Positions 49,612-64,000 of a stretch of 64,000 bases of DNA are shown here, one piece after another; position 1 is the stretch's first letter; every line of letters begins with the position of its first letter. This DNA comes from an uncultured Comamonas sp. (GTDB taxonomy: Bacteria; Pseudomonadota; Gammaproteobacteria; Burkholderiales; Burkholderiaceae_C): positions 90,598-154,597 of the forward strand of contig CAMZGS010000007.1 of the NCBI GenBank assembly GCA_947306475.1. Reading direction: 5' to 3'. The translations under genes were made by a program, and so were the position numbers. The notes below the pieces were generated by a model that worked only from the letters and a program-made list of their open reading frames with translations, was not told the origin of the DNA and did not search any database.

Positions 49612-51381
49612 GTGCTATTTCTCCAGAATCCTCCTCGTTACCTGTTCTTCACCGGTAAAGGTGGTGTAGGCAAAACGTCAATTGCCTGTGCCTGCGCCGT
49701 CGAGCTGGCTGACGCTGGCAAAAAAGTGCTGCTGGTCAGCACCGATCCGGCCTCCAATGTGGGGCAAGTGTTCGGGGGCACCATCGGCAACCGAATTACC
49801 CCCGTCGACAGGGTGCCCAGGCTGTCCGCGCTGGAAATCGATCCGCAAGGGGCAGCCCAGGCCTACCGGGACCGGATCGTCGGGCCTGTGCGGGGTGTGT
49901 TGCCAGACGAAGTGGTCAAAGGCATTGAGGAGCAACTCTCGGGCGCTTGCACGACTGAGATTGCCGCCTTCGACGAGTTCACCGGGTTGCTGACCGATAC
50001 GGCCCTGACCGCAGGCTTCGATCACATAATCTTTGATACCGCACCCACGGGCCACACCATCCGTTTACTACAACTGCCCGGTGCGTGGAGTGGCTTTCTG
50101 GAGGCGGGCAAGGGAGATGCGTCCTGTCTGGGGCCGCTGGCAGGACTGGAGAAACAACGCGCTCAATACAAGGCTGCCGTTCAGGCCTTGGCCGATCCTG
50201 GGCGCACGCGCCTGGTGCTGGTGGCACGCGCCCAGGCAGCCACCTTGCGTGAGGCGAATCGCACCCACCAGGAGTTGGCGGCCATCGGCCTGTCCCAGCA
50301 ATATCTGGTGATCAATGGTGTGTTGCCATTGGAGGCGCTTCAAGATGATCCGCTAGCCGCTGCGATCCACCAACGCGAAGCGTTGGCGCTGGCGAACATG
50401 TCTGCTGAACTCAAGGCCCTGCCGCAAGACAGTCTGGCTCTCAAGCCTTTTAATCTGGTAGGGCTGGATGCATTGCGTCATCTGCTCAACGACGCACCGG
50501 TGCCCTACAGCACAGTGCCGTCTGCGGTGCAGGCGCCCCCAGCCCCGAATCTGTCACAACTGGTCGACGACATCGCCGCCGATGGCCATGGCCTGGTGAT
50601 GCTGATGGGCAAAGGCGGCGTTGGAAAAACCACCCTGGCTGCTGCCGTGGCGGTCGAGCTGGCACATCGAGGCTTGCCGGTGCACCTGACCACGTCCGAC
50701 CCGGCTGCGCATCTTGCGCAGACCCTGGACGGCACATTGAATCACCTGACAGTCAGCCGCATTGACCCCCACGAAGTCACCGAACGTTATCGCGAGCATG
50801 TGCTGTCCACCAAGGGGGCGAATCTGGACGCAGAAGGTCGGGCCATGCTCGAAGAGGACCTGCGTTCACCGTGCACTGAAGAGATCGCCGTGTTCCAGGC
50901 CTTCTCCCGCATCATCCGCGAGGCGGGCAAAAAGTTCGTGGTCATGGACACCGCACCGACCGGGCACACCTTGCTGCTGCTGGATGCCACGGGTGCCTAC
51001 CACCGCGACATTGTGCGCCAGATGGGTGATAAAGGCGTCCACTTCACCACGCCCATGATGCAGTTGCAGGACCCCAAGCAAACCAAGGTCCTGATCGTCA
51101 CCTTGGCCGAAACCACGCCGGTACTCGAAGCAGCCAATCTGCAGACCGATTTAAGGCGCGCCGGCATCGAGCCTTGGGCCTGGGTCATCAACAACAGTCT
51201 GGCCGCCTGCGCGCCGGCTTCACCTTTGCTTCGTCAGCGTGCCGGCAACGAGCTTCGTGAAATCGAAGCCGTCGCCACGCAGCACGCACAGCGGTATGCA
51301 CTGCTCCCCCTGATGAAAAACGAACCGGTCGGTGTTCAGCGTCTGCTGGACCTGGCAGGCCACTCCCTTGAAAAGGTCTGA
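49612..51381 (+). CDS. arsA: Arsenite pump-driving ATPase ArsA
   Basis: A 589-residue two-domain ATPase. P-loops are FTGKGGVGKTS near residue 15 and MGKGGVGKTTLAA near 330. Each half has the DTAPTGHT motif. Arsenite-binding cysteines are in GACTTEIAAF, DASCLGPLAG and SPCTEEIAVF. It takes As(III) from ArsD and energises the Acr3 efflux pump. It starts at a GTG with an AGGGAG ribosome site and ends three bases before acr3. Confidence 0.96.
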   Translation: MLFLQNPPRYLFFTGKGGVGKTSIACACAVELADAGKKVLLVSTDPASNVGQVFGGTIGNRITPVDRVPRLSALEIDPQGAAQAYRDRIVGPVRGVLPDEVVKGIEEQLSGACTTEIAAFDEFTGLLTDTALTAGFDHIIFDTAPTGHTIRLLQLPGAWSGFLEAGKGDASCLGPLAGLEKQRAQYKAAVQALADPGRTRLVLVARAQAATLREANRTHQELAAIGLSQQYLVINGVLPLEALQDDPLAAAIHQREALALANMSAELKALPQDSLALKPFNLVGLDALRHLLNDAPVPYSTVPSAVQAPPAPNLSQLVDDIAADGHGLVMLMGKGGVGKTTLAAAVAVELAHRGLPVHLTTSDPAAHLAQTLDGTLNHLTVSRIDPHEVTERYREHVLSTKGANLDAEGRAMLEEDLRSPCTEEIAVFQAFSRIIREAGKKFVVMDTAPTGHTLLLLDATGAYHRDIVRQMGDKGVHFTTPMMQLQDPKQTKVLIVTLAETTPVLEAANLQTDLRRAGIEPWAWVINNSLAACAPASPLLRQRAGNELREIEAVATQHAQRYALLPLMKNEPVGVQRLLDLAGHSLEKV

Positions 51382-51384
51382 TCG

Positions 51385-52398
51385 ATGGGTGTTTTTGAGC
51401 GTTACCTGACCGTCTGGGTCGGGCTGGGCATTTTGGCTGGTGTTGGTCTCGGGCTGGTCATGCCCGACGTCTTCCAGACCGTGGCTGCGATGGAAATCGC
51501 GCAGGTGAACCTGGTGGTGGCCGTGTTCATCTGGATCATGATTTATCCGATGATGATCCAGATCGACTGGCATGCGGTGAAGGACGTTGGCAAGAAGCCT
51601 CAGGGCCTGATGCTTACGCTGGTGGTCAACTGGCTGATCAAACCCTTCACCATGGCCGCGCTGGGCGTGTTGTTCTTTCAGTACGTGTTCGCAGGCTGGG
51701 TCGATCCGCAGTCGGCCAGCGAGTACATCGCCGGCATGATCCTGCTGGGCGTGGCGCCCTGTACCGCGATGGTGTTTGTCTGGAGCCAGCTGGTCAAGGG
51801 CGATGCCAACTACACCCTGGTGCAGGTGTCGGTGAACGATCTGATCATGGTCGTTGCCTTTGCGCCGATTGCCGCTTTCCTGCTGGGCGTGACCAACGTG
51901 ACCGTGCCCTGGGAAACGCTGCTGCTCTCGACCGTGCTGTATGTGGTGCTGCCGCTGCTGGCGGGCATGACGACCCGGCAGCTGCTCGTGAAGCGGTCAC
52001 CCACCGCACTGGGCCAGTTTGTGGCGAGCCTCAAGCCCTGGTCGGTGGTGGGCCTGATCGCCACCGTGGTGCTGCTGTTCGGTTTCCAGGCCGGCACCAT
52101 CGTCGAGAAGCCTGGCGTGATCGCACTGATTGCGGTGCCGCTGATCCTGCAGTCCTACGGCATCTTCTTCATCGGCTGGTGGGGCGCCAAGTGGCTCAAG
52201 CTGCCGCACGACATCGCCGGCCCGGCCTGCCTGATCGGAACGTCCAACTTCTTCGAGCTGGCGGTGGCCGTCGCCATTTCGTTGTTTGGCCTGAACTCGG
52301 GCGCTGCACTGGCCACCGTGGTCGGTGTGCTGGTTGAAGTGCCGGTGATGCTATCGCTGGTGGCCATCGTCAACGCCTGGAAACCCCGTACCGTCTGA
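51385..52398 (+). CDS. acr3: Arsenite efflux permease Acr3
   Basis: A 337-residue inner-membrane transporter with about ten helices. It is of the ACR3 family and not ArsB: it has [16 protein letters not shown] with the essential Cys, [19 protein letters not shown] with the conserved Glu, and the [10 protein letters not shown] loop. It exports As(OH)3 from the cytoplasm, driven by the proton gradient and here probably by ArsA. ACR3 proteins paired with ArsD/ArsA are well known. Confidence 0.95.
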
Positions 52399-52413
52399 AC
52401 CGTAGAGCATCCC

Positions 52414-52836
52414 ATGACCAATATCACCATCTATCACAACCCCGCCTGCGGAACGTCGCGTAACGTGCTGGCCCTGATCCGCAACAGTGGGGTGGAGCCG
52501 ACTGTCATTGAGTACCTCAAGAATCCACCCAGCACGGAGCAGATCCAGTCCTGGCTGAGCGCTATGGGCGCTTCGGTGCGCGAGGTGCTGCGAGAAAAAG
52601 GCACGCCCTATGCCGAGCTGGACCTGGGCAACCCGAAGTGGACCGATGACGAGTTGCTGGCCTTCATTCAGCAGCACCCCATCCTGCTCAACCGCCCCTT
52701 CGTAATCACGCCGCTGGGAGTACGGCTGTGCCGTCCCTCGGAGATGGTGCTCGACATCCTGCCTGATCCGCAGCAGGGCCCGTTCATCAAGGAAGATGGC
52801 GAAGTGGTTATCGATGCTGAGGGGCGCCGTGTCTAA
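52414..52836 (+). CDS. arsC: Glutaredoxin-coupled arsenate reductase ArsC
   Basis: A 140-residue reductase that turns arsenate into arsenite with glutathione and glutaredoxin. The catalytic Cys12 is in [11 protein letters not shown], and the arginine cluster includes [16 protein letters not shown]. It belongs to the ArsC/Spx thioredoxin-like family and not the phosphatase-like type. Its 3' end overlaps arsH. Confidence 0.95.
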
Positions 52837-53563
52837 ATCAGTCTCCAACCCCCTGGCCGATCTGCCGCAAGTTCAAGCCGAACATTTCCGGGCCCCCGAT
52901 CCTGCTCAGTTGCTGGGTCCGCACTCGTCCCACCCGCCACGCATCCTGCTGCTGTACGGCTCCCTGCGCCCGCGCTCCTTCAGCCGACTGCTGGTTGAAG
53001 AAGCTGCCCGGCTGCTGCAGGCCATGGGTGCAGAGACGCGCATCTTCAACCCCAGTGGACTACCTTTGCCCGACGATGCGCCGGACACCCACCCCAAAGT
53101 GCAGGAGTTACGTGAACTGACACTGTGGTCAGAAGGTATGGTCTGGTGTTCGCCCGAGCGTCACGGCGCCATGACCGGCATCATGAAAACCCAGATCGAT
53201 TGGATTCCCCTGGCTGCTGGCGCTGTGCGCCCTACCCAGGGCAAGACGCTGGCGGTGATGCAGGTCTGCGGCGGCTCACAGTCCTTCAATGCGGTCAACC
53301 AGATGCGCGTGCTCGGGCGCTGGATGCGCATGATCACCATCCCAAACCAGTCGTCCGTAGCCAAGGCTTTCCAGGAATTTGATGACAACGACCGGATGAA
53401 ACCATCGAGTTACCACGACAGGGTGGTTGATGTCATGGAGGAACTGGTCAAGTTCACCTGGCTGACCCGCGACGTATCGCCCTACCTCGTGGACCGCTAC
53501 AGCGAGCGCAAGGAAAGCGCCGAAGAACTCATGCGGCGGGTCAACCTGCCTAATGCGGTGTGA
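52829..53563 (+). CDS. arsH: NADPH-dependent FMN reductase ArsH
   Basis: A ~244-residue flavoprotein that oxidises trivalent organoarsenicals. FMN binding is in [23 protein letters not shown], and [20 protein letters not shown] is the other core motif. The GTG at 52829, eight bases inside arsC, has a GAGGGG ribosome site and is my choice; an ATG at 52814 in the same frame is the alternative. It is the last intact gene of the arsenic operon. Confidence 0.92.
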
Positions 53564-53828: not shown

Positions 53829-54332
53829 TCAACGAAAATTGTTGACCAATTTGGTTGATTTGACATGTCGATGGTAAGCATCTGCGTCCAAAGACGCGCG
53901 TCCGCACTTGACGCGTTCCCGCTGCTCATCCCATAGCGCTGGCGGGTCCACCGCTAGGTCAAACAGCGTGATGTGGTTCGGCAGCGCGTCATCCAAGATG
54001 GCCGCCACGATGTCGGGCGCCAGCGTCGTCAGGTTGACCATCCGGCTCACGTAGCTGTTGTCGATGCCTTCCCGCGTGGCGATCTCCTTCAAGGACTTCG
54101 CCTCTCCTGACTCCAGCATCGCCAGCCAGCGGTGGCCCCTGGCCAGCGCCAGTTGGATGGAGGTTGGTGCTACGTCCCACGGTCTAACCGGCGCGGTTTC
54201 GCCGTTTGGCAAGGTGACCAGCTTGCGGCCGCTGCGGCGTTTGATCTGGATCGGGACCGACAGGGTCAGCCTGCCGTCGCTGGTCTGCAGGATGTCGGGC
54301 TCGCCGGTCTTCTGGATGCGGATGTCGCTCAT
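53829..54332 (-). CDS. Helix-turn-helix protein of the recombinase module
   Basis: A 167-residue protein starting MSDIRIQKTGEPD. The middle has a helix-turn-helix: SLKEIATREGIDNSYVSRM, followed by VNLTTLAPDIVAAIL, similar to ParB-type DNA-binding helices. I do not recognise a named family. Its start overlaps the recombinase stop by four bases (ATGA), as recombinase and DUF2924 also overlap, so the three are one unit. It may direct or regulate recombination. The 78 bases between it and the broken CDF gene hold short direct repeats of GCAGTTTGA and probably the element end. Confidence 0.7.
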   Translation of the reverse strand: MSDIRIQKTGEPDILQTSDGRLTLSVPIQIKRRSGRKLVTLPNGETAPVRPWDVAPTSIQLALARGHRWLAMLESGEAKSLKEIATREGIDNSYVSRMVNLTTLAPDIVAAILDDALPNHITLFDLAVDPPALWDEQRERVKCGRASLDADAYHRHVKSTKLVNNFR

Positions 54333-55684
54333 GCCAGTGCTTCCTCTCGTTGCTCGACCGGTTCGGGGCGCAGCTCCAGCACCAGGCGTTCGATGCCGTT
54401 GGCGCGCAGCCGCACTTCGAGGTCGTTGGGTGACACGATGACTTTCTCGACCAGCAGTTTCACGATCCGGGTCTGCTCGGCCGGGAAAAGTTGATCCCAA
54501 ATCGCGTCGAGCCGGGTCATGGCCACGGTGATCTTCGCCTCGTCCAAGGTTGGATCGAGCTTGATCGCCTGCGGCAGCATGTCGCCGAGTAGATTCGGGA
54601 CACGCAGGATTGCGCGCAGTTGGTCGAGTACCGCCGACTCGAGTTCGGCGGCCGGCAAGCGCGGCAGGCCTGAGGCGCCCGCGTGCTCCTTGGCGTCACG
54701 CTGAGGCACGTAGTACCGGTACCGACGGCCATTCTTCTTGGTCGTGTGCCACGGCGACAGTGCCCGGCCATCGTTGCCGAACACGATGCCCTTGAGCAGA
54801 TACACCACGGTTGCCCGAGTCGCGTTGCCTCGCACCCGGCCATTGGTGGCCAGGATCGCGTGGACGCTATCCCACAGTTCGCGGCTGATGATGGGCGGGT
54901 GCTCCGCCTGGTACCACTGGTCCTTGTGCCGCAACTCGCCAAGGTAGGTCCGGTTGCTGAGGAGCTTGTAGATGTGGCCCTTGTCGATCGGTCTGCCCTC
55001 GCGGGTCTTGCCGTCTTGCGTGGTCCACGCCTTCGACGTCACGCCATCCAGTTTCAGCTCCTTGACCAGCGCCGTACTGGAGCCGAGTTCAACGAAGCGC
55101 TGGAAGATGTGCCGGATCAGTTTGGCCTCGCGTTCGTTGGGCAACAGTCGGCGGTTCTCGACGTCGTAGCCCAGCGGTGGCACGCCGCCCATCCACATGC
55201 CCTTGCGCTTGCTGGCTGCGATCTTGTCGCGGATGCGTTCGCCGGTGACCTCGCGCTCGAACTGGGCGAAGGACAGCAGGATGTTCAGCATCAACCGACC
55301 CATCGAGGTCGTCGTGTTGAACTGCTGGGTGACCGACACGAACGACACGCCGTAGCGCTCGAACACCTCGACCATCTTGGAGAAGTCCGCCAGGCTGCGC
55401 GTAAGGCGATCGATCTTGTAGATGACAACCACATCGATCTTGCCGGCCTCGATGTCCACCATCATGCGGCGCAGCGCCGGACGCCCCATGTTGCCGCCCG
55501 AGAAGGCGGGATCGTCGTAGTCGTCCGCCACCGGAATCCAGCCCTCGGCGCGCTGGCTGGCGATGTAGGCATGGCCGGCATCCCGCTGGGCATCGATGGA
55601 GTTGTATTCCTGGTCGAGTCCTTCGTCGGTGGACTTGCGCGTATAGACCGCGCAGCGCATACGGCGCTTCAAAACGTCGCTCAT
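54329..55684 (-). CDS. Large serine recombinase
   Basis: A 451-residue site-specific recombinase. The resolvase domain has the nucleophile Ser18 (VYTRKSTDEG), DDPAFSGGNMGRPAL, and VVYKIDRLTRSLADF-type arginines; the E-helix region is SFAQFEREVTGERI. A recombinase domain (PPLGYDVENRRLLPNEREAKLI) and a C-terminal zinc-ribbon-like region without the usual cysteines follow (YLLKGIVFGNDGRALSP). It would integrate or excise the element. Gene overlaps of four bases on both sides tie it to its partners. Confidence 0.92.
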   Translation of the reverse strand: MSDVLKRRMRCAVYTRKSTDEGLDQEYNSIDAQRDAGHAYIASQRAEGWIPVADDYDDPAFSGGNMGRPALRRMMVDIEAGKIDVVVIYKIDRLTRSLADFSKMVEVFERYGVSFVSVTQQFNTTTSMGRLMLNILLSFAQFEREVTGERIRDKIAASKRKGMWMGGVPPLGYDVENRRLLPNEREAKLIRHIFQRFVELGSSTALVKELKLDGVTSKAWTTQDGKTREGRPIDKGHIYKLLSNRTYLGELRHKDQWYQAEHPPIISRELWDSVHAILATNGRVRGNATRATVVYLLKGIVFGNDGRALSPWHTTKKNGRRYRYYVPQRDAKEHAGASGLPRLPAAELESAVLDQLRAILRVPNLLGDMLPQAIKLDPTLDEAKITVAMTRLDAIWDQLFPAEQTRIVKLLVEKVIVSPNDLEVRLRANGIERLVLELRPEPVEQREEALA

Positions 55685-56178
55685 CGTCCACCTCCCTTCT
55701 TGGTGGACGGTTTGGTCTTGGCATTGGATGGCGGCCTGAGCCCAAAGAACAGGGGCCCCGACCAGCGCATGCCAGTGATCTCGCGGGCGATCATCGAGAG
55801 GCTCGGGTACATCCGGCCTTCAAAGTCGTACTGGCCATCGGCGGTCGCGATCACGCGGTGTTCGACACCTTTGTATTGCCGAACCAGCACGGTGCCGGCG
55901 GCCGGACGGTAATCGCGGTCGCGCTTTTTCACCTTGCCGGTTTCCACCAGGGATTCGATGCGGCGCTGATTCCGATCCAGCAGGTTGGCGTCGACCTTGC
56001 GGAGCTCTGCCTCTTGCAGCCGGTACGCAATGCGGCGTTCAAGGAACTGGCGGTTGTGGGTGGGCGTGTCGCCGCCGACCAACTTCTGCCAGAGCGCCCG
56101 GATCTCTGCCATGGGCAGCTCGGGCAACCTGGCGATTTGTGCTGCCACCGATGGCGGCGTTGAAAGTGACGTGCTCAT
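55681..56178 (-). CDS. DUF2924 protein
   Basis: A 165-residue basic protein of the DUF2924 family, commonly found upstream of large serine recombinases in prophages and integrative elements. It has LPMAEIRALWQKLVGGDTP, then RRIAYRLQEAELR and VLVRQYKGVEHRV ... SLSMIAREITG. The last block resembles a DNA-binding RAMA-type fold. It is first in the recombinase unit. Function unknown, probably DNA binding. Confidence 0.85.
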   Translation of the reverse strand: MSTSLSTPPSVAAQIARLPELPMAEIRALWQKLVGGDTPTHNRQFLERRIAYRLQEAELRKVDANLLDRNQRRIESLVETGKVKKRDRDYRPAAGTVLVRQYKGVEHRVIATADGQYDFEGRMYPSLSMIAREITGMRWSGPLFFGLRPPSNAKTKPSTKKGGGR

Positions 56179-56213: not shown

Positions 56214-56354
56214 ATGAACGCGCTGGTTGCCAGAGAAGCCAAGCAGGACTGGCATGCTGCGGGCAAGGAGCTGCGGCGCTGGGTGTATGGCGGTGGGAAA
56301 GTGCTGCCGGGCCTTATCACACGGCGGGAGGCCGAAGTGGCGCTACTGCTGTGA
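56214..56354 (+). CDS. Possible 46-residue ORF opposite the mcrC 3' end
   Basis: ATG at 56214 to TGA at 56354 encodes MNALVAREAKQDW... with a basic, tryptophan-containing N-terminus and ending RREAEVALLL. It fills the gap between mcrC and DUF2924 on the other strand and overlaps mcrC by 12 bases. I recognise no family, and chance occurrence is quite possible. Confidence 0.25.
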   Translation: MNALVAREAKQDWHAAGKELRRWVYGGGKVLPGLITRREAEVALLL

Positions 56355-57488
56355 CCCAGGCGATTTCAGGGATGGCTCACACAAGCGCAGCAGCTGCGCT
56401 CGAATGTCCGCAGGAGTTGCCGTCAAATCCACAGTGGCAAATCGAATGGCGTGCCCCTGGATCAGCACTGTCTCGTCCACCATCTGGCCGATCGCAGGAT
56501 GCAACATTAATCCGCTCGCGCGATCTGCAAGCGCATCGCCGCACCCAACCTGGGAGCGCAGATAGGCGTAGATCTGGTACACGTATCCGCTGCGCAGGGT
56601 TTCCTCACGGTACCAACCGCTCGTCACAATCGAGGTGAACTTGGTATCGATGACAATCCGCCGCCCGGTCGACGGGTTTTCGAGCACGACATCAGTTCGC
56701 ATCGTCGGCAGGATCTTGTCGATCCCCGCCGTCTTCTGCTCGATCTGCCAGCCCATCGTCCCGCCGCATAGCACCCGCCAGCCCTGCGGACTCAATACGA
56801 CTTGGTAGAAGCCGCCCACCGCCCGCTCGAACAAACGACGTACCCACGTCGCTTCTCGCTCCGGCAGAGAGAGCACATTCGCACCCGACGCCTCCGTAGG
56901 TAGCACTAGGTCGAACGCCAGCTTTGCGGCTGCCACCATGAACCGGTCGTCCGCATCGTTACGGCCGAAACGATCGGTGCTCATTTGGGCGCGGGTCGGT
57001 GCGTCCCCTGATACACCCATTGCCTTCATGCCACCCGCAAGTGCGCGGCACCGATGGGCAACGTCCTTCCTCTGAACGATCCTGGAGATGGACTCCAAGG
57101 CTGCTCGGACGAAACGATTGCGTGGGGTGTCGATGGTGAGTTCGTCGAACCGGCACGCCACCAAGCCTCTATCCATCAACTGATGGCGTTCGGTGGTCAA
57201 GACGTCGATCCGGCCACGCACGCGATTGATGACTGCATCACGAGATCGATATCCAAGACTCAAGCGGCGACGCTGTCGCACCTCAACCGAGTGGGCAAGG
57301 ATCTCCGCGACTAGATCCGGTAGATCGTCCGGGCTGTCTTCCAAGCCGATCTTGCCGATGCCGCGAGTGCGGAACAGGTCAGAGGCGTAGAGCATCAGCA
57401 GCCAGAGGTTGCGCACCGGAATGCGTCCGATGAACCCCTCAGCGCTCATGGATGCACTTTCCACCTGTTCTGCGACGGCGGTCATCAC
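56343..57488 (-). CDS. mcrC: McrC-type nuclease subunit
   Basis: A 381-residue protein. The N-terminal DUF2357-like region has IPVRNLWLLMLYASDLF and the DVLTTERHQLMDRGLVACRF block typical of McrC. The C-terminal half has a PD-(D/E)xK nuclease core: RTDVVLENP, then IVIDTKF. McrC is the endonuclease partner that pairs with the McrB GTPase to cut modified DNA. Its start overlaps the mcrB stop by four bases. It is the last gene of the defence operon. Confidence 0.9.
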   Translation of the reverse strand: MMTAVAEQVESASMSAEGFIGRIPVRNLWLLMLYASDLFRTRGIGKIGLEDSPDDLPDLVAEILAHSVEVRQRRRLSLGYRSRDAVINRVRGRIDVLTTERHQLMDRGLVACRFDELTIDTPRNRFVRAALESISRIVQRKDVAHRCRALAGGMKAMGVSGDAPTRAQMSTDRFGRNDADDRFMVAAAKLAFDLVLPTEASGANVLSLPEREATWVRRLFERAVGGFYQVVLSPQGWRVLCGGTMGWQIEQKTAGIDKILPTMRTDVVLENPSTGRRIVIDTKFTSIVTSGWYREETLRSGYVYQIYAYLRSQVGCGDALADRASGLMLHPAIGQMVDETVLIQGHAIRFATVDLTATPADIRAQLLRLCEPSLKSPGSQQ

Positions 57489-59707
57489 CAGCCCTGTGTC
57501 AGCCGTGCAATCGCCTTTTGTGCTTCGTCGGGCGCGTCGAACCAGTATTCATCCAGCAACGGGCCGATCTCCGTCTCCACGACCTGCTGGAACCACTTCT
57601 TCGTGTCTTCCGCCTCCAGTCGATGTGCGGGTGTCACATAGCTGTGACCAATCCGGAATTGCTTGCCAAGGCGTGCATCCGCCGCGATCTGTTCGTTCAG
57701 ATCGGCGATACGGCGTTCAATATCCGCGACCAAGCCCGGATCGACAGCACACTCCTTGACCACCCACTCCCGCCAAACCTGGCCCAGTCTTGGCTCCAGC
57801 CCAACGAAAGCAAAGCGGCGACGCAATGCCAGATCGACCAGTGCAAGTGATCGGTCAGCAATATTCATGGTGCCGACCACATAGAGATTCTCGGGAATAT
57901 GGACAGGACGTCGTTTGCCGTCTGCATCCGGATAGCAGAGTTCCAGCGCTTCGTTGGGTGTCCGCTTGCCGGCCTCGAGCAGGGTCAGCAACTCGCCGAA
58001 GATCTGCGCCGGGTTTCCGCGGTTGATCTCCTCGATCACCACGACAAACTTCGATGAAGGGTCCTTCGATGCGGCCTTGATGGCTTCCATGAAGACGCCG
58101 TCCGCCAGCGACAACTTGCCTTCTCCAGTCGGACGCCACCCTCGAACAAAGTCCTCGTAGGACAGGTTGGGGTGGAACTGCACTGCACGGACCTTGCTGT
58201 CGTCCTTCTGCCCCATTAGCGCGAACGCGAGCCGTTTGGCTAGCCAGGTCTTGCCCGTGCCCGGAGGCCCCTGAAGGATGAGGTTCTTTTTTGTGCGCAA
58301 ACGATCGAGCAAGCGGTCAATCTCGGCCCTCTCCAGGAAACAGCCGTCCTTGAGGATGTCCTCCACCGAGTAGGGAACGATTGGCGCTGCCACCTGAAAG
58401 GCTTCGCGAACTTCACCTTCAGTTTGCTGTTCTGCTTCGGCATTTGTACCGATATCGCCAGCCGGCACAGGCTCGTCAACCGGGTCTTTGTACATCCAGG
58501 ACGCAAGCGACAAGTCCGGGAAACTGTGGACCGGATAGCCGTCTTCGCCGAAGCGCGAACGCAAATCGTCCAGCAGCTTCAGATAGGCCCGACCATCACA
58601 TGGGCCTTGCTGACCACTGATGGCGACATTCAGGCCAAGCCGCTTGTTGATGTAGTGGCGCGACTGGCTATCCAGGGTCAGGAATTCCCACGGATGCGCC
58701 CAGTAGAGACCTGTCGAAAGGTTCCATGCGACACCCCACACTTGGGTTGCCTCGTCATAAGCCCGGATGAAGGCATCGCGAGTGTCCAACTGGTCGCCAT
58801 CGACCATCTTGCTCGCGGCAACGAATACCTTCCATAGCGCGTCGATGTCGCCCGCACCACGCTTGTCGGCATAGGCGAAAAACCAGGAACGTTGGTTGTT
58901 GAGAACGGGAATGCCTTCGAATGAAGGCGGGACCGGCACCGTCACACCCAGCAACTTGGCAAGTTCACCCGCGATGGTCTTGCGGTTGGCATCGGTCATG
59001 GATCGGTTAAAGGTGCCCATCGTGGTGAATGGGCAAATATCCCGCAGCGGACCACTGGTTCCATCGGGAAACTTATCCTGGAGATAGGTCAGCCCCGGCA
59101 CCCGGGACGCGATCTCGTGGATGCCCTCGATGAGCGGAGTTCGATCGTCTGCGTGGGCCAGCAGCTTTTCGGCCACTGCCTCGTAGAAGTCCGTCCACTC
59201 GAAGCGCTGCTTTTCTGGTGAAGTTGTGCCGTAACGCTCCCGCCAAAAGGGCTCGTTGCGAAAGCGATCTAAATCCTGCGGCCTGCCGTCAAACGCAAAT
59301 GCAATCAGCGCATCGTTCATCCATTCGCCGGGCAGCACACGCCAGATCGTTGCTCGGTGAGTGTAGAAGTACCACTCCCGTACCGGCTCGACCTTGGCCC
59401 AGTCCACCTTCACCCGTTTCCCGTCGTTCAGGTTTTCGGTGATCGTGCCGACCGCCTTGATGCCCATCACCGAAACCGCTCGGCCTCGGCTATCGAAAGG
59501 CAGACCGTGCTTTCGCGTGTAAGACGACTTGATGGCGATCCGCTCTCCCGGGCGCATGGAACGCACCACGTCGAGGAGCTTGTCGTCGTAGCCGTTCTCC
59601 CAAATTCCTTCTGCAAGAAATCGCGGCATCTGATCATCATTACCACCATAGCTCGCGCCGACGAACCAGTTTGCTTGCGCGCCTGTGCTGTCTGTTTTTG
59701 TATTCAT
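57485..59707 (-). CDS. mcrB: McrB-type AAA+ GTPase with N-terminal EVE/PUA-like region
   Basis: A 740-residue protein. The C-terminal AAA+ motor has Walker A GPPGTGKT at about 480-487, Walker B and the McrB signature VVVIEEINRGNPAQ at about 555-568, and MNIADRSLALVD near 614. The first ~110 residues (WFVGASYGGNDDQ, MRPGERIAIKSSYTRKHGLP, GIKAVGTITEN) look like an EVE/PUA-type fold, which in other restriction factors reads modified bases. A middle domain contains STGLYWAHPWEFLTLDS. The ATG at 59707 lies eight bases after the upstream stop; a TTG four codons earlier is unlikely. With McrC it forms a modification-dependent restriction pair. Confidence 0.92.
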   Translation of the reverse strand: MNTKTDSTGAQANWFVGASYGGNDDQMPRFLAEGIWENGYDDKLLDVVRSMRPGERIAIKSSYTRKHGLPFDSRGRAVSVMGIKAVGTITENLNDGKRVKVDWAKVEPVREWYFYTHRATIWRVLPGEWMNDALIAFAFDGRPQDLDRFRNEPFWRERYGTTSPEKQRFEWTDFYEAVAEKLLAHADDRTPLIEGIHEIASRVPGLTYLQDKFPDGTSGPLRDICPFTTMGTFNRSMTDANRKTIAGELAKLLGVTVPVPPSFEGIPVLNNQRSWFFAYADKRGAGDIDALWKVFVAASKMVDGDQLDTRDAFIRAYDEATQVWGVAWNLSTGLYWAHPWEFLTLDSQSRHYINKRLGLNVAISGQQGPCDGRAYLKLLDDLRSRFGEDGYPVHSFPDLSLASWMYKDPVDEPVPAGDIGTNAEAEQQTEGEVREAFQVAAPIVPYSVEDILKDGCFLERAEIDRLLDRLRTKKNLILQGPPGTGKTWLAKRLAFALMGQKDDSKVRAVQFHPNLSYEDFVRGWRPTGEGKLSLADGVFMEAIKAASKDPSSKFVVVIEEINRGNPAQIFGELLTLLEAGKRTPNEALELCYPDADGKRRPVHIPENLYVVGTMNIADRSLALVDLALRRRFAFVGLEPRLGQVWREWVVKECAVDPGLVADIERRIADLNEQIAADARLGKQFRIGHSYVTPAHRLEAEDTKKWFQQVVETEIGPLLDEYWFDAPDEAQKAIARLTQGW

Positions 59708-59715
59708 GTCTGTTC

Positions 59716-60438
59716 TCAAAGGGTGGCGCGCAAAGCGACGAACTGGTTACTCGGCCCTTCCGACCGGAGGTCGAGGTTCGGGCTGTTCGACACCACGTAG
59801 GCCAGGGGCCGCGTCAAGTTGAACGGGAACAGCACGGGCAGCGACTGCAGACTGGGCACTGAAACGGGCTTACCGGCGTAGCGGACAGCAGCTTCTATCA
59901 GCCAAGCAGTGAGGGCATCGTTGTCGATGCTCGTCTGGGGCAAGCGAATGACGCGCTTGCCTTTCTCGACCCGCTCCACTGCGCCCCAGCTCGCCTGGCT
60001 CTGGATGACCATGTTGGTCATGCGCCGGGTGCCTTCGCGCTCCCCATAGGTTTCGCTCATGCGCCGATGCACCTCGGCGGACGCGCAGTCGCCCTGGATG
60101 GCGGACAGGCGGCCCACCAGCTCGGCTACCTTGCCAAAGAACGGGTACGTCGCCACGGACATGCCCCAGCACAGTGCTGAGACGGGAGTGTCCGGCTGCG
60201 TCTGGTGGATGGCCACGCCGCGATCCGCGTAATCGACCAGTTCGGCGCGTGGCTCCAGCCACAACCGATTCAGTACGGTGCGTGTTTTCTTCTTGGCTTC
60301 CACGCCAAGTTCGGCTGCATCGAGCAGTGCATTCAGATCATCTAGTCCAGCCACGCCCGCACGAATATTCAGTGCCGCAGCCGCCCAATCAAGCTGAATG
60401 AACCGATCAAAGCCTATTTTTGGGGCTGATGAATTCAT
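59716..60438 (-). CDS. Unrecognised 240-residue protein between pglZ and mcrB
   Basis: A soluble protein starting MNSSAPKIGFDRFIQ. The N-terminal third is helical and acidic (AGLDDLNALLDAAELGVEAK). The middle holds YPFFGKVAELVGRLSAIQG and RRMSETYGEREGTRRMTNMV, with many charged residues, and could be a winged-helix-like DNA-binding region. I recognise no family. It overlaps pglZ by four bases and sits eight bases before mcrB, so it is part of the operon. BREX type 3 has BrxA in the same place after pglZ, but I see no clear sequence match to BrxA. Confidence 0.8.
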   Translation of the reverse strand: MNSSAPKIGFDRFIQLDWAAAALNIRAGVAGLDDLNALLDAAELGVEAKKKTRTVLNRLWLEPRAELVDYADRGVAIHQTQPDTPVSALCWGMSVATYPFFGKVAELVGRLSAIQGDCASAEVHRRMSETYGEREGTRRMTNMVIQSQASWGAVERVEKGKRVIRLPQTSIDNDALTAWLIEAAVRYAGKPVSVPSLQSLPVLFPFNLTRPLAYVVSNSPNLDLRSEGPSNQFVALRATL

Positions 60439-62465
60439 TCGGTACCAATCACATAACTGACTTTCACAAAGGGCACGATCAACTCTTCGACCGACACCCC
60501 GCCGTGGACCACCACCTGCTCGCCCTCCGGCACAAAGGCGGTTCGTCCGCCTGCGAATAGGGGCATGAAGTTCGCGGGTAGTCCAGCGATGTCCAACCTG
60601 ACTGTGGTGGGATAGGCCGCAGCGGAATCGGCCAGCAACGGCTCACTCCGGTAGACCCGCACGCGCTCTCCACGCGTCTCGGCAATCACGCCCTGGTTGG
60701 GTCTGCCGACGCCGGTGGACTCCACATTGCCGTGGTCCGCCGTGAGATAGATGTGGTATCCCCTGTCCAGCAGCAGCGAGAACAGTCGGTCGACGAATCC
60801 GGTCGACAACCAGTTGCCGATCCACATCGCCACGTCCTTCTTAGACCGCTCCTTGTGGAGCCGATCGTCCACCTCATCGATGACCAGGCCCACCACCTTC
60901 GGACGCCGGTCGTTCAAGTCCGCCTCAAGCACATCTAGTTGATCAATCTGGCGCAGCGCGCGTCGATACATCACGTCATTCGCGTTGACGCCTTCGTTCT
61001 GCCAGAACGTCTTCCACAAGGATTCTTCCTTGTCCGTTCGGTCGATGGAGTCGTCGAACTCTCGCGGCTTCAGTCCGGAGAACAGCGCCTGGCGCGACAC
61101 CGATGTCACGGTCGGCAGCCAGGCGAACGCCGTTCCCTCGTCGAACGCGAAGCGTTTCGTGGTGGCGATCAGGCGCTCGCGGATCTGTACCCACTGGTCG
61201 AAGGCCAGCCCGTCGAATACCAGCAGAGCCACCTTCGTTTCCCCTGCGGACCGCCGATGGCGCAAGAAGCGCGGCACGTGGTGCACCATCACCGGGCCTT
61301 TTGTCACCGGCTGCAGGATCAGGTCGGCGTAATGCTTGGCCGCTACCCAGGCTTGCAGGTGCTCGTCTGACTGCGCTTGCAGGACCTTGATGCGATCTCG
61401 AATCACCGGCAGGTGTTCGCTGCCTTCAGTGCCTGGCAGACCATGCATGCGGGCCAGGATCTCCCCGTAGCGCTTTGCGAACTCGCTCCAGTCCTTGTGC
61501 GAAGAGGCCGCCGTTGGGGTCGTCTCGGTCAGGCCATCGATGCCTTTGAGTACCAAAGCCTGTAATGCCGCCGGGTCCTGGACGATCCCGGCCTTGATCC
61601 AACTCGGCATCCCCGCCGGGACGCTGTGCACCGCCAACGGATGCAAGCTGCCGTCGAGGAACATGGAATCGACCAGCACCTGCACATCGGAGTGATCGAA
61701 CGGAATCTCGATCTTGGCGACGCCATCTTTTCCCAAATAAGCTGGCGGCGGCGGCTCCCCTGTACGCGTGCCATCCAGCCCCAGGGTCTTCAGATAGCGG
61801 TACCACGCATCCTGCACCACGCGCAGCAGCGCGCTCTTGGATGCCAGCCATGTGGCGACGGGCAGGCCCGCGAACAAACCTTTACCCTGGATGATGCCTG
61901 CCGCGTGCTCGGCAAACAGCGGTGGCAACGAGCGGTTGGCAAAGTGCATGCGCAGCAGCTCACGCCAAAAGTCGACCGGGTTGCGAATGGATCGCGGCGT
62001 CAGTTGGTAGACGTGCTCGAGAATGAAGTCCTTGGACTCGTTCTCGCCGCGCGCTGACTGCAATTCGGTCTGGTGGGCATGAAACAGCCCGGCCAAATGC
62101 TCCGGCTCGACTTGCTGTACCGCGCTGTATGCCAGCCTGGGGAAGAGCTCCGCAAGGCTGAGCCGGACCACACGTCCGTGGTGCACGATGTCCCACGGCA
62201 ATTCATTCGCGTCGGCGCTGCGCAGATGCAGAACCAGCGAGGGCGCTGGCCCCGCCTCACCGCGATCCCAGGCTGCGCGATAGCGTTCCTCGTATTCCGC
62301 CCGAAAGGCGAACGGGTCTTCGTACAGCATGACCTCGAAGCCGCGACCGCGCAGTTCGGACAACAGCTTTTCGTCCAGCAGCACATCGTCGGGGTCGCAC
62401 GCCACCCACAGCCGGGTGAGATCGGCCGTGAAGTGGCTGAGAATGCGTTCTGACCACTGGCTCAT
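60435..62465 (-). CDS. pglZ: PglZ-domain protein (alkaline phosphatase fold)
   Basis: A 676-residue protein. The PglZ domain fills the C-terminal half: VFDGLAFDQW at about 416-425, the nucleophile region TVTSVSRQALFSG at 452-464, VIDEVDDRLH, and the metal-binding TADHGNVES at 575-583. The N-terminal half (RLWVACDPDDVLLDEKLL) is helical and of the type seen in BREX PglZ. PglZ is a core protein of BREX and related phage-defence systems. It is a metal-dependent nuclease or phosphoesterase in the cases studied. Four-base overlaps join it to the helicase upstream and the unknown gene downstream. Confidence 0.92.
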   Translation of the reverse strand: MSQWSERILSHFTADLTRLWVACDPDDVLLDEKLLSELRGRGFEVMLYEDPFAFRAEYEERYRAAWDRGEAGPAPSLVLHLRSADANELPWDIVHHGRVVRLSLAELFPRLAYSAVQQVEPEHLAGLFHAHQTELQSARGENESKDFILEHVYQLTPRSIRNPVDFWRELLRMHFANRSLPPLFAEHAAGIIQGKGLFAGLPVATWLASKSALLRVVQDAWYRYLKTLGLDGTRTGEPPPPAYLGKDGVAKIEIPFDHSDVQVLVDSMFLDGSLHPLAVHSVPAGMPSWIKAGIVQDPAALQALVLKGIDGLTETTPTAASSHKDWSEFAKRYGEILARMHGLPGTEGSEHLPVIRDRIKVLQAQSDEHLQAWVAAKHYADLILQPVTKGPVMVHHVPRFLRHRRSAGETKVALLVFDGLAFDQWVQIRERLIATTKRFAFDEGTAFAWLPTVTSVSRQALFSGLKPREFDDSIDRTDKEESLWKTFWQNEGVNANDVMYRRALRQIDQLDVLEADLNDRRPKVVGLVIDEVDDRLHKERSKKDVAMWIGNWLSTGFVDRLFSLLLDRGYHIYLTADHGNVESTGVGRPNQGVIAETRGERVRVYRSEPLLADSAAAYPTTVRLDIAGLPANFMPLFAGGRTAFVPEGEQVVVHGGVSVEELIVPFVKVSYVIGTE

Positions 62466-64000
62466 CCCACCTGTCCTCCGGGCATCACATCGCCGGAGAC
62501 GCGCACCATCATCACGGCATTCAAATCCGGCACGCTGGCCTCCATGTCGTCCAGAGCGGCCATGCGTGCGTCGTGCTCCTGCTGCAGTCGCTTGCGCCGA
62601 TGCTCACGCACGGCGGGCAGGCCGATTCGTCCAATGGCCTGGCCTCGGGCCTCGAACGCATACACCGCACGTTCGCGCTCTTCCTTCAGCCGGGCGCGGT
62701 GTTCAGTCAGCAGCTCCGTGAAGATCCGTTCACCCTGGGTACTGGCGGCGGCATGCGATGCCTCGAACCATTTCACCGACTCCTCGGCACCGGTCACGGC
62801 ATGCACATCCACGGTTTCAGTCAGCAGCAGATCCCAGACGCGCTTGGCGGTCGGCACAAAGGGGCGGCCTTCCTCGTTGATGAACACTGGCAGGAAACGC
62901 TTCCGGCTCAAACCTTCGGCTGCCAGGCTGATTTCCCATAGCGACCAGATGCCGCGAACCGAATCCGGCAGGCCGGTCACGCGGATCACCGGCAGTGGTT
63001 GGCCAGCGACAAAGCGCGGCAGCTCGCTGATCACCGCCCGGGCGCGTGGGTCTTCCATCGTGACCCATTCCAACTCCGGGTTCTCATCCGCCGTGCGGGC
63101 GTCAAAACAAGCCTGGGCCGACTCGCTGCCGTCCGCCCACTTCACTCGCCACGCCTTGCCAACCTTCGTTGCCGAGCCGCCGCGCGCAGCCAACCCGCTG
63201 GTGATGGCACGCTCCAGCCAGAACTGCGCCGGGTGGTCGCGCCACTTGCGTGCATCGTCGGCGTCCAGATCGTGTTCGGTGGTGAGCAGATCGCTATTCT
63301 TCTTCGACTCTGCCAGGGTGGATCGCAGTTGCGACACCACCGCGTCGCACTCCTGTTCGATGGCATCCGGGTTCTGCAGACCGTGCACGAACAGCTCGTC
63401 GAAGATCGGGTCGGCCTCGACCGAGTCCATCACGTCGGCCGCCTTGTCGACGCCAAACTCCTGCGCGATGACTTCCAGCTTTTCTTCCAGAACCTGACGC
63501 ACGCGATGCTCCACCGTGTCTTCAAGCACGAAGTTGATGGCGCGGACCACGTGCTTCTGCCCGATACGGTCTACGCGGCCAATGCGCTGTTCGATCCTCA
63601 TCGGGTTCCACGGCATGTCGAAGTTGACGATGACATGGCAGAACTGCAGATTCAGACCTTCGCCACCGGCATCGGTGGATATCAGCACGCGCACATCCTT
63701 GGAGAACGCCTGCTGCGCACGGGTGCGGGTTTCCAGATCCATGCTGCCGTTGAGCGTCGCCACCGAGAAACCACGGCTCTCCAGGTAGTCGGCCAGCATC
63801 GCTTGGGTGGGCACGAACTCGGTGAAGATCAGTACCTTCAGCGCCGGGTCGCCTTCCTCTTGCTGCAGCTTGTAGATCAGCTCCAGGAGCGCTTCGGCCT
63901 TGGCGTCTGTGCCAGCGGCCTCGGTTTCCCGCGCCAGTTCCAGCAGCATCTCGACTTCGGACTTCTCCAGCTCCCAGCCGCTGGACTGCATGGCCAGATC
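62462..64000 (-). CDS. SNF2-type helicase, 5' end outside the window
   Basis: The visible 512 residues are the C-terminal half of a superfamily 2 helicase: LIFTEFVPTQAMLADYLESR (motif IV), TDAGGEGLNLQFCHVIVNFD (motif V), PWNPMRIEQRIGRVDRIGQK (motif VI), and a long tail with coiled-coil character (RLKEERERAVYAFEARGQ). The ATPase motifs I-III are beyond 64000. It resembles the SNF2/HepA-like helicases found in BREX type 3/5 (BrxHII) and DISARM (DrmD). The frame is open to the edge. It overlaps pglZ by four bases and leads the visible operon. Confidence 0.88.
   Translation of the reverse strand, partial: DLAMQSSGWELEKSEVEMLLELARETEAAGTDAKAEALLELIYKLQQEEGDPALKVLIFTEFVPTQAMLADYLESRGFSVATLNGSMDLETRTRAQQAFSKDVRVLISTDAGGEGLNLQFCHVIVNFDMPWNPMRIEQRIGRVDRIGQKHVVRAINFVLEDTVEHRVRQVLEEKLEVIAQEFGVDKAADVMDSVEADPIFDELFVHGLQNPDAIEQECDAVVSQLRSTLAESKKNSDLLTTEHDLDADDARKWRDHPAQFWLERAITSGLAARGGSATKVGKAWRVKWADGSESAQACFDARTADENPELEWVTMEDPRARAVISELPRFVAGQPLPVIRVTGLPDSVRGIWSLWEISLAAEGLSRKRFLPVFINEEGRPFVPTAKRVWDLLLTETVDVHAVTGAEESVKWFEASHAAASTQGERIFTELLTEHRARLKEERERAVYAFEARGQAIGRIGLPAVREHRRKRLQQEHDARMAALDDMEASVPDLNAVMMVRVSGDVMPGGQVG

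Follow-up and report, generated by a model that had tools for sequence, protein, structure and literature searches.

A complete type 3 BREX operon with McrBC at its 3' end in an uncultured Comamonas: a probable exchangeable type IV module

The 64,000-nucleotide stretch analysed here (the window: G000:C7:90598-154597, from the 2.92-Mb genome of an uncultured Comamonas sp.) contains the 3' part of a minus-strand defence operon that ends in mcrB and mcrC. Read rightward past position 64000, the operon is by gene content a complete type 3 BREX (bacteriophage exclusion; BREX-3) system, for which adenine methylation of the host and exclusion of phage are predicted. We think it probable that this complete BREX-3 operon carries McrBC as an exchangeable, autonomous type IV restriction module at its 3' end, where it would form a second layer of defence. 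Autonomy and exchangeability are proposed because most BREX-3 relatives lack mcrBC and because close McrBC relatives are found with other cores, a distribution that suggests that McrBC is not the cutting tool of BREX itself. The observations behind this explanation are the gene content and layout of the operon, the recurrence of the arrangement, the replacement of McrBC by GmrSD in relatives and a swap of the core between operons with the same ends.

The operon comprises 12 co-directional genes on the minus strand (56343-76575 in window-extended coordinates, which are L004 coordinates + 59822), spaced by -4 to +37 nt. From 5' to 3' these are the WYL regulator gene, brxF, brxC, a PD-T7-3-like gene, pglXI, HEC-01A, HEC-01B, brxH, pglZ, brxA, mcrB and mcrC. 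An earlier sequence-only reading of the window had described the last five, from the helicase gene to mcrC, as a single operon; they lie where it placed them, with three 4-base overlaps (helicase/pglZ, pglZ/brxA and mcrB/mcrC) and one 8-base gap (brxA/mcrB), and are the tail of the 12 tightly spaced genes. The extension of the contig that it had recommended brought in the first seven genes (WYL to HEC-01B), all upstream and to the right of the window; of the 944 residues of BrxH, the C-terminal 512 are encoded within it (62462-64000). The spacing points to a single transcript for the 12 genes. All operon frames are uninterrupted, and nucleotide-binding, methylase and nuclease motifs are present in BrxC, BrxF, BrxH, PglXI, McrB and McrC, the six proteins examined by motif. 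The features are as follows.

56343-57488, minus: mcrC, nuclease subunit, 381 aa (PF10117, E 9.4e-19; NCBIfam McrC equivalog, 456 bits, cut-off 338)
57485-59707, minus: mcrB, 740 aa, with a C-terminal McrB AAA+ GTPase domain (AAA_5; PDB McrB 6hz4; motifs)
58469-59227, minus: McrB N2 domain (residues ~165-410), all-helical (identity profile against L043/L056; AF2 model)
59228-59704, minus: McrB N1 region, EVE/PUA-like fold in a model, putative modified-base reader
59716-60438, minus: brxA, 240 aa (PADLOC BrxA)
60435-62465, minus: pglZ, 676 aa (NCBIfam BREX_PglZ_3; PF08665)
62462-65296, window-extended (L004:2640-5474), minus: brxH, SNF2-type helicase, 944 aa (PADLOC BrxHI/BrxHII; SNF2-rel_dom)
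L004:5471-6124, minus: HEC-01B (HEC-01B match)
L004:6128-7357, minus: HEC-01A (HEC-01A match)
L004:7359-10223, minus: pglXI (clear PglXI match)
L004:10220-11569, minus: PD-T7-3-like gene (PD-T7-3 match)
L004:11577-15335, minus: brxC (clear BrxC match)
L004:15373-15834, minus: brxF (clear BrxF match)
L004:15839-16753, minus: WYL regulator gene (WYL match)
L004:16849-18789, plus: ADP-ribosylglycohydrolase gene, divergent, at the operon head

The type 3 BREX core is given as six genes in PMC12839542, and all six (brxF, brxC, pglXI, brxHII, pglZ and brxA) were found in this one operon, which adds the WYL, PD-T7-3-like, HEC-01 and McrBC genes to them. PglZ is of the BREX-3 kind, with 737.6 bits on the BREX_PglZ_3 model against a cut-off of 250. 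The helicase, SNF2-type as PMC12839542 describes BrxHII, scored 1466 bits over the whole protein on PADLOC BrxHI|BrxHII, as against 337 for the best DrmD model, and its 372.5 on the NCBIfam DrmD model fell under the cut-off of 610. DISARM (defence island system associated with restriction-modification) was considered and rejected on this difference and because no operon protein had DrmA or DrmB as its best match; with the six core genes found, the operon is BREX and not DISARM. The assignment of PglZ and the helicase to BREX or DISARM in the sequence-only reading thus holds for its BREX half. The 240-residue protein that was there left unnamed is BrxA (E 4.7e-71), recognized, like BrxH, by the PADLOC run which that reading had suggested; it had no sequence match in PDB. 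A methyltransferase and a DUF499-type ATPase had been expected to the right of the window, and pglXI and a large ATPase do lie there, although the latter is DUF6079 by Pfam and not DUF499. The order brxH-pglZ-brxA is kept in nearly all of the relatives that were fetched.

The stretch 3' of brxA was compared in 83 loci from a PglZ profile search, namely the best 80 of 100 relatives in the genome collection and three viral contigs. BrxA was found in 82 of them (all but L070), and 72 were usable, with at least 1500 nt beyond brxA. Intact mcrBC stood directly 3' of brxA in four of the 72 (L043, L051, L056 and L079), which makes three distinct loci, since the sequences of L051 and L079 are the same throughout 16,280 nt. 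The genes also follow a partial brxA in L147, and mcrB remnants follow brxA in L062 and L024. The last of these is the sister of the window's locus on the PglZ tree and holds ~65 nt resembling the start of the L056 mcrB, which were recognized by eye and were not listed by the remnant search. An intact GmrSD-type gene (Pfam GmrSD_N PF03235 and GmrSD_C PF07510) was present in five of the 72, directly 3' of brxA in L048, L061 and L103 and one gene later in L054 and L077; five more had remnants of it (L023, L026, L028, L029 and L032), and in L050, outside the 72, the gene is cut by the contig end. McrBC or GmrSD, intact or decayed, therefore followed brxA in 16 of the 72, a count without a matched control, and the two never occurred together among the 82 loci with brxA. 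DUF4917 genes and a family of 365/396-aa proteins of unknown function occupy the same stretch, and where these co-occur with a type IV enzyme the order after brxA is the 365/396-aa family, the type IV enzyme and DUF4917. Three plasmid BREX-3 loci (of five matches) had no annotated mcrBC in a gene table that is incomplete; one of the three has a DUF262 gene on the opposite strand. The idea that McrBC is an obligate part of BREX-3 was rejected on the four intact cases among 72.

A case of exchange is given by L056, with McrBC, and L077, with GmrSD, a sister pair in the PglZ tree (100*). The cargo of L056 is McrBC followed by DUF4917, and that of L077 is an unknown gene followed by GmrSD. Their DNA matches at 86% to just past brxA, is unlike across the cargo and matches again at 82% beyond it, and this break and resumption of homology indicates that one block has been substituted for another, with a different type IV enzyme, at a single place. 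Judged from these alignments, the position after brxA is one at which the unrelated type IV enzymes McrBC and GmrSD stand in for each other.

The complementary change, of the core between constant ends, was seen in G961. Its WYL protein is 93% and its McrB and McrC are 82-89% identical to those of the window, and between the WYL gene and mcrBC lie a type I system and a helicase gene in place of BREX. At the DNA level, one match (91% over 2925 nt) covers the glycohydrolase gene, the intergenic region and the WYL gene and ends near the WYL stop; a second (78% over 3435 nt) runs from near the mcrB start to ~100 nt past mcrC; between WYL and mcrB there was no DNA match at E 1e-10. In an alignment around the WYL start, the two sequences agree in 188 of 202 columns, as counted by us. 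On the evidence of these matches, the core is swapped, BREX-3 for type I, between common WYL and mcrBC ends. We also observed that the type I-McrBC island is present twice in G961, as L132 and L133, ~67 kb apart on one contig (G961:C1) and with equal match percentages. In L146, a contig from the viral collection, mcrBC (92% identical DNA) is accompanied by a WYL gene (53%), a ResIII helicase gene and methylase genes.

Thirty McrB loci were examined for what lies upstream of McrBC; they were picked from the collected loci, with 5'-truncated, GTPase-only and near-identical cases excluded, and include two from one organism (L051 and L079) and two from one genome (L132 and L133). BREX-3 was found in five (L043, L051, L056, L079 and, with a partial BrxA, L147), type I in six (L010, L107, L132, L133, L137 and L157) and a type III-like system in six (L111, L134, L146, L148, L150 and L155). 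The remaining 13, some of them on short contigs, had no methyltransferase of the search panel upstream on the same strand; in L106 neither of the two scanned genes upstream is a restriction gene. A BREX-exclusive McrBC clade was considered and rejected on L146 and L132, where close McrBC stand beside other cores. A survey of the window's order covered 399 genomes, that of the window among them; at E <= 1e-60, McrB occurred in seven and PglZ-3 in eight, and the two shared a locus in the window's own genome only; G826 has both on different contigs. Some of the PglZ genomes in this survey appear identical to the PglZ-relative loci described above, so that the two samples overlap. In the wider samples, again including the window's genome, McrB was found in four of 369 genomes of the class (E <= 1e-40) and in eight of 398 of the phylum (E <= 1e-60).

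The proteins themselves have the features of a type IV McrBC pair, an NxxD AAA+ GTPase McrB and a PD-(D/E)xK McrC in one operon. The AAA+ GTPase of McrB occupies residues ~440-739, with a Walker A motif and NxxD in the form NIAD, and matches PDB McrB 6hz4 at E 1.7e-90 over residues 440-734. On the NCBIfam McrB model the protein scored 247.6 bits, under the cut-off of 637, because its GTPase part alone matches the model. McrC aligned with E. coli McrC (6hz4_M) as TD...DTK against TD...DAK, residues that we take to be those of the nuclease. Modification-dependent cleavage is predicted for the pair. A CoCoNuT (coiled-coil nuclease tandem) was rejected, as the McrB signature of that system is NxD, whereas NIAD is NxxD.

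In the N-terminal part of McrB, the N1 region resembles EVE folds in a predicted model and is a putative modified-base reader. Identity to the McrB of L043 and L056 is 82-83% before N2, 52-53% within it and 94% after it, a profile by which the N2 domain is swapped among BREX-linked McrB. Its AF2 model has a pLDDT (predicted local distance difference test) of 86.1, and its matches in Foldseek and VIA are mostly glycosylases, all weak, which makes an HhH-GPD glycosylase-like fold for N2 no more than a lead. An N2 profile gave probabilities of 0.1 and 0.2% against Nth/MutY-like sets that are crude, being the mid-locus open reading frame (ORF) of 30 loci sorted by length alone. Neither N1 nor N2 alone matched Pfam at E 5, and the N2 sequence had no match in PDB.

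Taken together with the gene content, the comparisons suggest how the operon might work. The WYL protein would control the whole transcript, PglXI would mark host adenines, and BrxC, BrxF, BrxH, PglZ and BrxA would block phage DNA without the mark. Phages whose modified DNA escapes BREX would then meet McrBC, in which McrB would read modified bases through its N-terminal part (the EVE-like fold and the swapped helical domain) and McrC would cut the modified DNA; McrB would have to ignore PglXI's own mark. We infer co-transcription, the activities and this division of labour, the last modelled on BREX-1/BrxU, a case that has been tested (PMC8565348).

More tentatively, the operon may be viewed as a transferable chassis, a possibility that we rate well below the account just given. 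A 5' WYL gene and a 3' mcrBC would frame the chassis, methylation-based cores of the BREX-3, type I or type III-like kind would be exchanged entire between them, and attack on unmodified and on modified DNA would be selected as one unit. What varies in it would be the part of each arm that does the recognizing, PglXI in one and McrB N2 in the other, with McrB readers filtered to tolerate the methyl mark of the core.

Several points weigh against the main explanation, McrBC as an exchangeable, autonomous module of the BREX-3 operon. Intact mcrBC is a minority state, and 47 of the 72 loci had nothing from the cargo panel after brxA. The restriction to the 80 most similar relatives also weakens the explanation. 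On a PglZ tree of 81 rows built by a quick method, with the McrBC label on six rows (L062 included and L024, whose remnant was found later, left out), the McrBC label needed four changes and the GmrSD label nine against all rows; shuffles among the 16 labelled rows gave values as low in 127 and 103 of 500, which is no clustering beyond chance. Selection for the pairing of BREX-3 with McrBC is not proven, given the minority frequency and the lack of a matched control. BREX-linked McrB share 92-98% identity in the AAA domain, against just 72-87% between the PglZ of these loci and that of the window, which could mean adaptation to BREX; as a counterpoint, the mcrBC of L146, 92% identical in DNA, stands beside a non-BREX core. 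All of the activities, finally, are predicted from the genes.

The sequence-only reading had suggested a single system with McrBC as its effector and helicase-PglZ as the arm that senses or modifies. The tight operon with its 8-nt brxA/mcrB gap would fit such an integrated system, and a review states that an McrBC relative is able to work at unmodified sites, given suitable methyltransferases (PMC12707154). However, the upstream genes form a complete BREX-3 whose relatives mostly do without mcrBC, the McrBC subfamily also stands beside type I or type III-like cores or neither, and nuclease activity has been reported for the PglZ of BREX-1 (PMC12839542), and we regard an integrated effector as highly improbable. 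That reading had added that the unit would be a chance pairing if pglZ/helicase relatives usually occurred without mcrBC or if a complete standard BREX or DISARM system rarely had it attached. Both turned out to be so: in its proposed test of neighbourhood conservation, only four of 72 relatives, three of them distinct, had an intact mcrBC immediately 3' of brxA. Chance pairing is nevertheless not simply true, in view of the 16 loci of 72, uncontrolled as that count is, with McrBC, GmrSD or a remnant of either.

A related possibility is that McrBC is opportunistic cargo, collected with other defence genes at the downstream border of mobile defence islands and sharing transcription without a selected link to BREX. 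DUF4917, the 365/396-aa family and others in the same stretch, the many loci without any panel match, the loss recorded by remnants, the movement of mcrBC between cores and the unclustered labels on the PglZ tree are all in keeping with it. We nonetheless consider it unlikely, since one or other of two unrelated type IV enzymes, intact or as a remnant, recurs at this place, since the two never occurred together in the 82 loci, and since BREX with type IV restriction is the commonest cluster in print for BrxR-type WYL genes (PMC9122601). McrBC might also be a backup effector that responds to damage, or to phage proteins by which BREX is put out of action, in line with a general proposal for auxiliary nucleases of BREX (PMC12839542). 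The HEC-01 pair in the same operon may itself be such a backup. We presume a nuclease role for its DUF4276 part. Against a backup role of McrBC, its McrB has a predicted EVE-like region of its own, and the subfamily occurs in L106 without BREX or other adjoining restriction genes; both argue that McrBC has its own trigger, and we give the idea very little credence.

A type IV enzyme in a BREX operon is known in kind, as BREX with type IV restriction has been published. Like BREX-1/BrxU on pEFER, the present operon combines BREX genes with a WYL regulator gene and includes a type IV enzyme (PMC8565348, PMC9122601); unlike it, it is BREX-3 and has McrBC after brxA, whereas pEFER has BREX-1 with a GmrSD-type enzyme between brxC and pglX. 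No protein of the window's operon matches GmrSD, the class to which BrxU belongs; it is in relatives that GmrSD follows brxA. McrBC commonly joins type I operons, as in the E. coli K-12 branch, where it is likewise co-directional with a methylation-based system (PMC11090510); the type I loci L010 and L132 also have it at the 3' end, and the difference here is a BREX-3 core in place of HsdRMS. Extra nucleases beside BREX core genes, GmrSD included, are described by Rakesh and Krishnan 2026 (PMC12839542), the main text of which has no word beginning with Mcr; its supplements lie outside that statement, and its PD-(D/E)xK class could include McrC. We found no published description of BREX-3 with McrBC, a search that did not cover supplements and does not prove absence from the literature. 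What appears new is this combination, together with the interchange of McrBC and GmrSD behind brxA and the exchange of the core between common ends. A loose co-occurrence of BREX and type IV enzymes thereby becomes testable, with a defined place after brxA and two interchangeable unrelated enzymes. With this place, and with a natural pair of operons that share their ends but differ in their cores, one can ask whether both arms are selected together, and by what means a reader of modified bases spares the methyl mark made next to it.

Some further observations concern the operon's accessory genes and flanks. The ADP-ribosylglycohydrolase gene was rejected as a fixed head gene, being intact in one and fragmentary in two of 18 records searched, which were picked from the collected loci. 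A shared inverted repeat of the BrxR-box kind was sought upstream of WYL, with one weak 71% pair in the window's own sequence and none in G961. PD-T7-3-like relatives precede pglX in seven other BREX-3 loci (L042, L053, L077, L090, L093, L095 and L098), and HEC-01 genes or pieces (L004:5471-7357) recur upstream of brxH or pglZ in L023, L045, L046, L049 and L141. In L024, L026, L027 and L028 (Zoogloea, Neisseria, Pseudomonas and Nevskiales records), the BREX-3 proteins are 93-98% identical, which across these taxa points to recent transfer, and PglXI is only 52-68% identical. Just downstream of mcrC, window positions 53829-56178 hold a recombinase gene, a DUF2924 gene and a 223-aa gene, relatives of which stand just upstream of McrBC in L161; a recombinase piece with 95% identity lies near McrBC in L156. 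The flank beyond the cargo is common to L146:12414-13608, L056, L077, L152 and L156 and encodes a phage lysozyme on the opposite strand in L146, so that some of these islands may adjoin prophage lysis genes. The ORFs at window positions 49612-53563 resemble, from their translations, what we take to be an arsenic resistance cluster (ArsA-, ACR3-, ArsC- and ArsH-like).

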